From Pseudomonadota bacterium (lineage in GTDB: Bacteria > Pseudomonadota > Alphaproteobacteria > SMXQ01): a DNA stretch of 38,299 nucleotides. Below, in pieces: positions 8,741-38,299 of this stretch (position 1 is its first letter; every line of letters begins with the position of its first letter). A model generated the notes under the pieces. That model was not told where the DNA came from. It worked only from the letters and a program-made list of their open reading frames with translations, and did not search any database. The translations under genes and the position numbers were made by a program. Location of the stretch: positions 1 to 38,299 of the forward strand of contig JACZQV010000004.1 of assembly GCA_022545545.1 (NCBI GenBank), written 5' to 3'.

Positions 8741-9015
8741 CTAGTACTTACTTTCATAGGAGGGTGACACATCTGACGGCCTTGCGGGTTCTCTCGGCTA
8801 GGAGCGTGGTCCGCCGTGATGCCGGGCGCATCACAAGGGCCGCGCGCCGCCGTCCGAAGGGCCCGCAAGGCCGCCCGAAGGGTCCGTTTTTCGCGGCCAC
8901 CGGAGGGCTCAAGCGCCGCTTGACGATGTCCGGAGAACGCCGGCGCGCCGCTTCCACCCCGGAGGCCGCGAAAAGACGATCATATGTATCACCCTCCTAT
9001 GAAAGTAGGTACTAG
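8741..9015 (-). mobile_element. MITE-like inverted-repeat element, copy A (275 bp)
   Basis: A non-coding element with 32-base terminal inverted repeats (8741-8772 and 8984-9015, 30 of 32 matching). The ends read CTAGTACTTACTTTCATAGG then AGGGTGACACAT. It is in reverse orientation to copies B and C: its right end carries the CATATGATCGTCTTTTCGCGG subterminal block (read on the minus strand). An inner inverted repeat (TTTTCGCGGCC near 8888 against GGCCGCGAAAAG near 8963-8974) forms a second hairpin. TA is present at both edges of the repeats, as expected for a TA target duplication. It sits 10 bases after one gene and ends 18 bases before the next start codon. Confidence 0.85.
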
Positions 9016-11020: not shown

Positions 11021-11503
11021 ATGCGCTTTCCGCGCGCCATACGGTTTGACGAATCGGACACCCGGATCTTCGAGCGCGCCGCTTCACCGGGGGAGTGGGC
11101 CATCCCCGGAACCTTCGTCTTCGCCGACGCCGACCCGGAGACCCTCACCGGCAAGGTCCGCCAGGCCTTCGCTTACGGCTTCTTGGCTATCGGCAGCTTC
11201 GGCTGGTCGACCTTCGTCGAGGTCGATAACATCAGCGAGGCCGCCTACGAGGCCACCCTCGAGGTCCTCGCCGGGTATCTGCTCGCCCACTTCGGTGCCC
11301 CCGACCGCGAGGCGGCGCTAAGCGCGGCCCGGGCGGAGGCCGAGTACGCCGCCGGCTTGTGCGAGCACGAGCGGCGCACGCTGCTGGCGGTCGAGCGCTC
11401 ATTCGGCGAGGACGGCATCGTCGAGCGCTTCAAGGTCATCCACGGGACCTCCGACCCGGACCATCCCCAAGCCTGGACGATGACCGGGGACGGCGACGCT
11501 TGA
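11021..11503 (+). CDS. DUF6505-like protein
   Basis: A 160-residue soluble protein without signal or membrane segments. It begins MRFPRAIRFDESDTRIFERA, followed by EWAIPGTFVFADADPETL and AYGFLAIGSFGWSTFVEVD. This pattern matches, from memory, the DUF6505 family found near formate dehydrogenase loci of alphaproteobacteria. No catalytic motif is evident. GAGGGA lies 7 bases before the ATG. Its stop is 8 bases before inverted-repeat element B, which separates it from the DUF6352 gene. Confidence 0.65.
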   Translation: MRFPRAIRFDESDTRIFERAASPGEWAIPGTFVFADADPETLTGKVRQAFAYGFLAIGSFGWSTFVEVDNISEAAYEATLEVLAGYLLAHFGAPDREAALSAARAEAEYAAGLCEHERRTLLAVERSFGEDGIVERFKVIHGTSDPDHPQAWTMTGDGDA

Positions 11504-11511
11504 GGGGTCAC

Positions 11512-11784
11512 TTAGTCCTTACTTTCATAGAAGGGTGCGACATATGATCGTCTTTTCGCGGCCTCCGGGGTGGAGGCGTCGCGCCGGCGTTCTCTGGACA
11601 TCGTCAAGCGGCGGTGACGCCCTCCGGTGGCCGCGAAAAGCGACCCTGCGGGCGGCCTTGCAGGCCCTTACGCTCACCTCGCGCGGCCCTTGTGATGCGC
11701 CCCCATCACGGCGGACCACGCTCCGGGCCTGAAGAACCCGCAAGGCCGTCGGATGTGTCACCCTCCTATGAAAGTAAGTACTAG
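11512..11784 (+). mobile_element. MITE-like inverted-repeat element, copy B (273 bp)
   Basis: Second copy of the element at 8741. Its right end (11753-11784) is the exact reverse complement of the left end of copy A; its left end (11512-11543) has diverged (TTAGTCCTTACTTTCATAGA). Inside, CTTTTCGCGGCC (11552-11563) pairs with GGCCGCGAAAAG (11629-11640). TA is found at both outer edges. The left end carries an RBS-like AAGGGTG followed by CATATG. No transposase gene is inside. Reverse complementing the copy aligns it with copy A over its whole length. A short palindrome and GTACTAG at 11818-11837 may be a fragment of another end. Confidence 0.85.
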
Positions 11785-21380: not shown

Positions 21381-22220
21381 CTATCGCGCGTTCTCCATGA
21401 TCTCCAGGTTCTTCTTGGCCATATCGTTCCCCTGTTCGGCGGCGCGGCGGAACCATTTGATGGCTTCCGCCTTGCTTTCCGGCACGCCCCTTCCCTTGGC
21501 GTACATGTCGGCGAGGTTGTTCTGGGCGAAGGCGTCGCCCTGCATCGCCGCTTGGCGGTACCAATTCACCGCCAGCCCATCGTCATTGGGCACGCCCACG
21601 CCTTCGGCATAGAGCAATCCGAGATTGTACTGGGCCTTGGCGTGGCCCTGCTGGGCGGCCTTGTGGTACCACTTGGCGGCGTCTTCCGGGTCCTTGGAGA
21701 CGCCCCGGCCCCGGGCATACATGACCCCTAGATTGTACTGGGCCTGGGCCAGACCCTGCTCGGCGGCCTCGCGGTACCACCTGGCGGCATCGCCGTCATC
21801 CTTGTCGACGCCGCGGCCCTGGGCGTACATGACGCCGAGGTTATACTGGGCCTTGGCGTAGTCCTCCTCGGCGGACTTTTCGAACCAGTCGACCGCCTCC
21901 TTGTCGTCCTTGGCGACGCCCAGCCCCTTGGCGTAGGCCCTGCCGAGCTGGTACTGGGCCAGCGCGTCGCCCTGCCCGGCGGCCTTCCGGTACCACTTGA
22001 CGGCCTCGGCCTCGTCCTTGGCGATGCCCTCGCCATTGGCGTACATGTGGCCGAGGTTGAACTGGGCCACCGGGTTGCCTTCCCCGGCCGCCGTCTTGAA
22101 TTCCTCGAACGCGGTCGCGTAGTCGCCCCGCAGATAGGCCCAAAGGCCGGTCTTGAAATCGGCCCCCACCTCGGCCGCCAAGGCGGCGAGCAGCGCCAGC
22201 GCGATCAGAAGGCGTTTCAC
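21381..22220 (-). CDS. Exported Sel1-repeat protein
   Basis: A 279-residue protein with a signal peptide (residues 1-20, cleaved near AEVGAD) and about seven Sel1 repeats of 36 residues, such as AKAQYNLGVMYAQGRGVDKD followed by WYREAAEQG. Sel1 arrays form alpha-solenoids that bind partner proteins; the location is probably periplasmic. The start is GTG, supported by GGAGG nine bases upstream. It lies 18 bases after the uncharacterised gene at 22239-22742, probably one operon. The repeat units are also alike at DNA level, which makes copy-number change likely. Confidence 0.88.
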   Translation of the reverse strand: MKRLLIALALLAALAAEVGADFKTGLWAYLRGDYATAFEEFKTAAGEGNPVAQFNLGHMYANGEGIAKDEAEAVKWYRKAAGQGDALAQYQLGRAYAKGLGVAKDDKEAVDWFEKSAEEDYAKAQYNLGVMYAQGRGVDKDDGDAARWYREAAEQGLAQAQYNLGVMYARGRGVSKDPEDAAKWYHKAAQQGHAKAQYNLGLLYAEGVGVPNDDGLAVNWYRQAAMQGDAFAQNNLADMYAKGRGVPESKAEAIKWFRRAAEQGNDMAKKNLEIMENAR

Positions 22221-38088: not shown

Positions 38089-38299
38089 CCAGTACTTACT
38101 TTCATAGGAGGGTGATACATATGATCGTCTTTTCGCGGCCTCCGGGTAGGAAGCGTCGCGCCGGCCTGCCCTCCGTACGACTTCGGGAGGCGGGCGATGC
38201 TGGCATCGTCAAGCGGCGGTGACGCCCTCCGAAGGCCGCGAAAAGCGACCCTTTGGGCGGCCTTGCGGGCCCTTCGGACGTCGTCGCGCGGCCCTTGTG
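38089..38299 (+). mobile_element. MITE-like inverted-repeat element, copy C (cut by window end)
   Basis: Third copy of the element family, beginning 11 bases after the MOSC gene stop and running off the right edge after about 210 bases. The left end reads CCAGTACTTACTTTCATAGG then AGGGTGATACATATG. Same orientation as copy B. Inside, CTTTTCGCGGCC and GGCCGCGAAAAG recur, but between them there is a different loop carrying its own hairpin (GCCCTCC against GGGAGGC). The left TA is changed to CA. Confidence 0.82.

Follow-up and report, generated by a model that had tools for sequence, protein, structure and literature searches.

How has a gene-free inverted repeat come to occupy three places in a single contig, and do its CTAG edges make it a member of the IS630/Tc1-mariner group? 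The window, i.e., the whole stretch of DNA analysed here, is the entire contig C12 (38299 bp) of a 2.75 Mb metagenome-assembled draft genome in 196 contigs (G000), and its three copies, A, B and C, belong to a repeat family that we denote R1. In our assessment, R1 is a new MITE-like family that is related to IS630 at most by its choice of target. More specifically, we favor, with a probability of roughly 0.7, a non-autonomous MITE-like palindromic element of ~267 bp that is moved in trans, prefers CTAG, generates no target duplication and leaves altered flanks. Short repeats of this kind that have never been described are common, so that the family in itself is modest news; its junctions are less ordinary.

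Copies and structure of R1

The features of the window that belong to the family, with exact copy boundaries set from the AGTACT ends, are as follows:

8741..8742, no strand: outer flank of A, CT, completed to CTAG by AG of the element
8743..9013, minus strand: R1 copy A, 271 bp, full copy, AGTACC...AGTACT; in plus-strand coordinates, its right edge is the ATG-type end
8743..8776, plus strand: left terminal inverted repeat of A, AGTACTTACTTTCATAGGAGGGTGACACATCTGA, basal helix in the consensus fold
8777..8979, minus strand: interior of A, gene-free, two hairpin arms and a small CCC-TTC-GGG hairpin
8980..9013, minus strand: right terminal inverted repeat of A, AGTACCTACTTTCATAGGAGGGTGATACATATGA on the minus strand, basal helix in the consensus fold
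9014..9015, no strand: outer flank of A, AG, completed to CTAG by CT of the element
11514..11782, plus strand: R1 copy B, 269 bp, full copy
38091..38299, plus strand: R1 copy C, stops at the contig end, with ~28 bp extra in arm I

In the repeat search of the window, A and B are 90% complementary over 130 and 92 nt and 82% complementary over 67 nt, whereas the two arms of A (8741-8783 and 8973-9015) are 86% complementary over 43 nt. The preliminary description of this locus had recognized an inverted-repeat family with an inner hairpin and no coding gene, with A reversed relative to B and C, and all of this is confirmed by the repeat search, the window alignment and the folding and end-motif analyses given below. 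Copy C, which had been regarded as a truncated element, is incomplete because contig C12 ends there, i.e., this is an assembly cut and not a truncation of the element, which in fact carries the additional sequence in one arm. Each of the three copies lies 10-13 bp 3' of the stop codon of a gene. Elsewhere in the window (21409-22019), there are six to seven 108-bp repeats, Sel1-type-like, within a coding frame.

The whole-element search yields ~40 scored copies in the host genome, in which the R1 end motif occurs at 101 places, as opposed to none for the reversed pattern used as a control. The relatives searched include one other genome of the genus, that of the sister species (G001), which contains at least 28 scored matches and 65 occurrences of the end motif. 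In the other 383 of the 385 genomes of the class that were searched, the end motif is absent at up to 3 mismatches, and R1 was not found in the collections of viral contigs, plasmids and phages searched. Judging from these searches, R1 is confined to one bacterial genus. The marker genes appear to be of alphaproteobacterial type. The copies are 76-97% identical to each other, and some of the close pairs span both species.

R1 has the typical organization of a MITE, being short (full forms of 267-421 bp), bounded by terminal inverted repeats of 24-34 bp and gene-free. The commonest sizes are 267-271 bp and ~300 bp; the longer forms (344, 379 and 421 bp) contain extra hairpin-folding inserts within arm I, and forms of 45-169 bp are internal deletions. 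In one place (L044:1455-1520), an 18-bp R1 end (AGTRCTTACTTTCATAGG) is repeated three times in tandem with 20-bp spacing. In the consensus fold, the inverted ends pair to give a basal stem of 32 pairs, and there are, in addition, a long arm, a very small hairpin and another arm. The minus and plus strands of A have folding energies 10.7 and 12.9 s.d., respectively, below those of dinucleotide shuffles. Across 32 copies, 98% of the pair cells are paired, and the stem contains 10 two-sided compensated pairs, whereas shuffles give a mean of 4.6 and slid structures 0-3. The left and right arms within one copy are more alike than arms from different copies. Selection for the hairpin and templated repair of the palindrome are both possible causes of this pattern.

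By crude gene calling, R1 copies are placed at gene boundaries, with 12 apparent intragenic matches, several of which begin less than ~65 bp from the junction; we read the latter as start-site uncertainty. Some copies are fused with a TAG stop codon, and a lone R1 end (L037:1495-1525, G000:C24:2371) directly precedes the ATG of a membrane-protein-like gene. The AGGAGG of this end is positioned as a putative ribosome-binding site. A predicted influence of R1 on transcripts is plausible.

Mobility, decay and rearrangement

In G001 (C165), the site orthologous to that of copy A is empty and lies between the same two genes, and a batch comparison of flanks revealed more empty sites, in both directions between the two species. 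Because A and many other copies have such empty counterparts, R1 is a mobile element and not a structure fixed at the same places in relatives. Thus, R1 is dispersed, multicopy and polymorphic in position, again as in MITEs. It is also found within other repeats that exist in R1-free form, namely, R3 (17 R1-free copies aligned), R4 and R5; the latter two (L249-L257 and L258-L269, respectively) are repeat families with many copies in G000, each of which carries R1 in one G001 copy. The earlier suggestion of MITEs mobilized in trans therefore stands with respect to dispersal, gene-free organization and mobility, whereas movement in trans is presumed.

At one site, G000 has just a 24-bp R1 end where G001 has a full copy, which implies that single ends can be decayed copies. 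Accordingly, the idea that single R1 ends before genes represent a regulatory 24-mer was abandoned, given that the one with an ortholog proved to be a decayed copy. Within R3, R1 occurs at the same tip in both orientations, as a result of in-place inversion or of two separate insertions at the same point. Furthermore, the flanks of one and the same G001 site recur in two G000 contigs that carry R1 or end in it, which points to probable recombination between R1 copies. The presence of R1 at assembly breaks and rearrangement points matters for the reading of these draft genomes. R1 ends also repeatedly abut, at GTGGTCC, a third repeat family, R2, which starts with AGAGCRCTATCCGRCCAGATGGAATCG and has mostly TA flanks (L064:1770-1995, L121:937-994, L022).

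Target site and junctions

At position -2, 96% of 145 distinct R1 ends have C or T, and at position -1, T accounts for 53% and C for 35%. Of 47 copies, 42 have TA on at least one side. However, TA is present on both sides in only 10 of the 47, compared to 32 with TA on one side and 5 with TA on neither, an excess of one-sided cases relative to independence (p 0.01). The inner A is almost never altered, in contrast to the outer base, which is altered in nearly half of the ends. Direct repeats of 2-9 bp at the flanks, a usual mark of young MITEs, do not exceed the shuffles at offsets from -2 to +2.

The validity of this test is supported by another MITE-like family, R3 (~246 bp, ends AGCCCGAATATTTCATGAAGG, TA flanks; L181-L209, e.g., G001:C64:2638-2888), which has more than 20 copies in G001 and is represented in G000 by two that are near-complete. 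Counted from flanking bases in the same way as for R1, perfect 2-bp direct repeats are found in 16 of 21 R3 copies (14 TA, one CA and one TG; Fisher p 3e-5 against 10/47 for R1). R3 passes, and therefore the duplication test works in these genomes; R3 itself looks like an IS630/Tc1-mariner MITE.

The empty sites tell the same story. There are 23 empty-site comparisons, 13 of them gap-free (11 orthologous and 2 paralogous, the latter between R1-carrying and R1-free R3), with the caveat that the two species differ by ~5-20% at the compared places, so that single sites are noisy. In all 13, the inserted length is exactly that of the AGTACT...AGTACT unit, and no direct repeat is formed. The center of the clean empty site is TA in 6 of 13, compared to a background of 1.8% (binomial p 5e-8). 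Differences between filled and empty sites are concentrated next to the element (27 of 52 at positions 1-2 on each side vs 36 of 260 further out), and the pair flanking the filled element is T and G in 9 cases, C and A in 3, and G and A in 1. The outer bases do not appear to be inherited with the lineage of the element (no signal, p 0.2). Taken together, these two observations indicate that insertion, or something soon after, rewrites the bases flanking R1. To our knowledge, the altered bases match no established transposition mechanism.

Two further accounts of the junctions were discarded. A 6-bp duplication of AGTACT is incompatible with the left and right variants, AGTACC and GGTACT, which co-vary as an inverted, not a direct, pair, and donor coupling bases, as in Tn916, fail, by reasoning, to predict the observed flank pairs.

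These results bear on the proposal, made from the edges of A, that R1 uses a TA target in the IS630/Tc1-mariner manner. CTAG at both edges holds for A but not as a rule of the family, and a preference for CTAG/TA-like targets is upheld, with TA far more frequent than background but not at the center of every clean empty site, whereas TA duplication as a general rule failed on the 47 copies and the 23 empty-site comparisons, with no direct repeat at any of the 13 gap-free sites. Because this duplication was tested and did not hold, we do not assign R1 to IS630/Tc1-mariner. R1 appears to resemble IS630 in its target but does not show the duplication, and to classify it by its CTAG edges alone would be an error.

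Candidate enzymes and relationships to known elements

Genes of the DDE_3 (IS630) family are present at three loci, G001 C165, G001 C14 and, as a fragment, G000 C179. No R1 end was detected within 5 mismatches at these loci of both genomes; all three have other ends and were rejected as the source of R1, so that the expectation of an IS630-like transposase with matching ends did not materialize. The element at the first of these loci (L110:328-1410, G001:C165), an IS630-family element with ends TATAGATCATTGCA, lies near the region orthologous to window position 11139. The sole DDE_Tnp_1 gene of G000 (C45) belongs to the IS1380 family and was also dismissed, with no R1 end nearby. A single Y1 gene of G000 (L272, C86; 326 aa), which is RAYT-like, has an ortholog in G001 (L273, C6), where there is also a second Y1 gene; the product shows a weak match, below the cut-off, to the model of REP-associated tyrosine transposases and has a DnaA-like C-terminal part. 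The sequence examined around the Y1 loci (L271-L273) contains no R1 ends. Thus, no transposase with R1 ends was identified among the DDE_3, DDE_Tnp_1 and Y1 genes of G000 and G001, drafts that may lack multi-copy IS, and the autonomous partner of R1 is therefore missing, lost or located in an unassembled repeat.

We propose the following scheme. An enzyme supplied in trans would recognize the AGTACTTACTTTCATAGRAGGGTG ends of R1 and insert copies at C-NN-G sites, with CTAG preferred, mostly at gene boundaries. The inserted unit is AGTACT...AGTACT, without target duplication, and the 2 bp on either side are altered during or soon after insertion. The copies then decay by deletion, to palindromes of 45-69 bp or to single ends, probably serve as recombination points, and may have been inverted in place.

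The leading rival is still an IS630-like enzyme, for two reasons: the length inserted fits 265+2 as well, and exceptions in which one side has TA and the other only A have been described for ISY100 in vitro (PMC2170065). Under this interpretation, R1 would be an ordinary IS630/Tc1-mariner MITE, GTACT...AGTAC, of 265 bp, with TA duplicated and, mostly, one outer base since mutated. Elements of the IS630 family are described as duplicating TA, and a preference of transposition for TA within CTAG is cited (PMC2170065). MITEs of this group resemble R1 in being small, gene-free and intergenic, with terminal inverted repeats and ends starting with TA-G, and in the CTAG/TA target that R1 appears to prefer; the TA centers of some of the empty sites and the TA on at least one side of most copies would fit. 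Nevertheless, most R1 copies lack the TA direct repeat that R3 retains, mutation would have to affect the outer base in nearly half of the ends while sparing the inner A, the excess of copies with one changed side is hard to reconcile with this route, and the IS630-family genes that are present have other ends. We therefore consider an ordinary IS630-type MITE possible but, on balance, unlikely. Conversely, the junctions could reflect a novel integration reaction, unlike those of DDE, Y1 or serine enzymes, that acts on CTAG-like sites without duplication and rewrites two bases on each side, with one T and one non-T outer end and perhaps a single-stranded or hairpin intermediate. This is an improbable scenario at present; if recent insertions confirm the R1 junctions, such an unusual reaction becomes testable.

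The remaining alternatives explain less. Like the REPINs associated with RAYT, R1 is a palindromic, non-autonomous, intergenic element that leaves no duplication, in genomes where a Y1 transposase gene, single-copy in G000, is conserved in both species, and this enzyme could be the mover. However, in the stretches examined, R1 ends do not accompany either Y1 gene, R1 is far longer than REPs, its ends and insertion anatomy are symmetric, and G001 encodes a second Y1 protein; hence we find this origin very improbable. The extreme stability of the fold, the compensated pairs and the location at gene boundaries, with some fusions to a stop codon, would suit a functional structured RNA or transcript-end element that is maintained by selection and is not transposable. 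Against this, the orthologous position in the sister species is frequently empty, R1 is found nested in other repeats and decays freely, the window has no Rfam match above the gathering score, and the compensated changes may stem from palindrome repair, so that we give hardly any credence to this possibility.

Among the described short repeats, the ERIC elements of enterobacteria are long imperfect palindromes with internal hairpins that are intergenic, occur in dozens of copies and include length variants made by inserts. R1 resembles them in size class, palindromic structure with internal hairpins, intergenic location, copy number and length variants, but unlike ERIC is confined to one genus; the comparison is by description, and we know of no sequence similarity between the two. 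The Correia elements of Neisseria are likewise gene-adjacent, high-copy MITEs with terminal inverted repeats, from which R1 differs in its ends, its longer interior hairpins and its lack of TA duplication. Inversion has been reported for the Correia elements (reviewed in PMC10969869).
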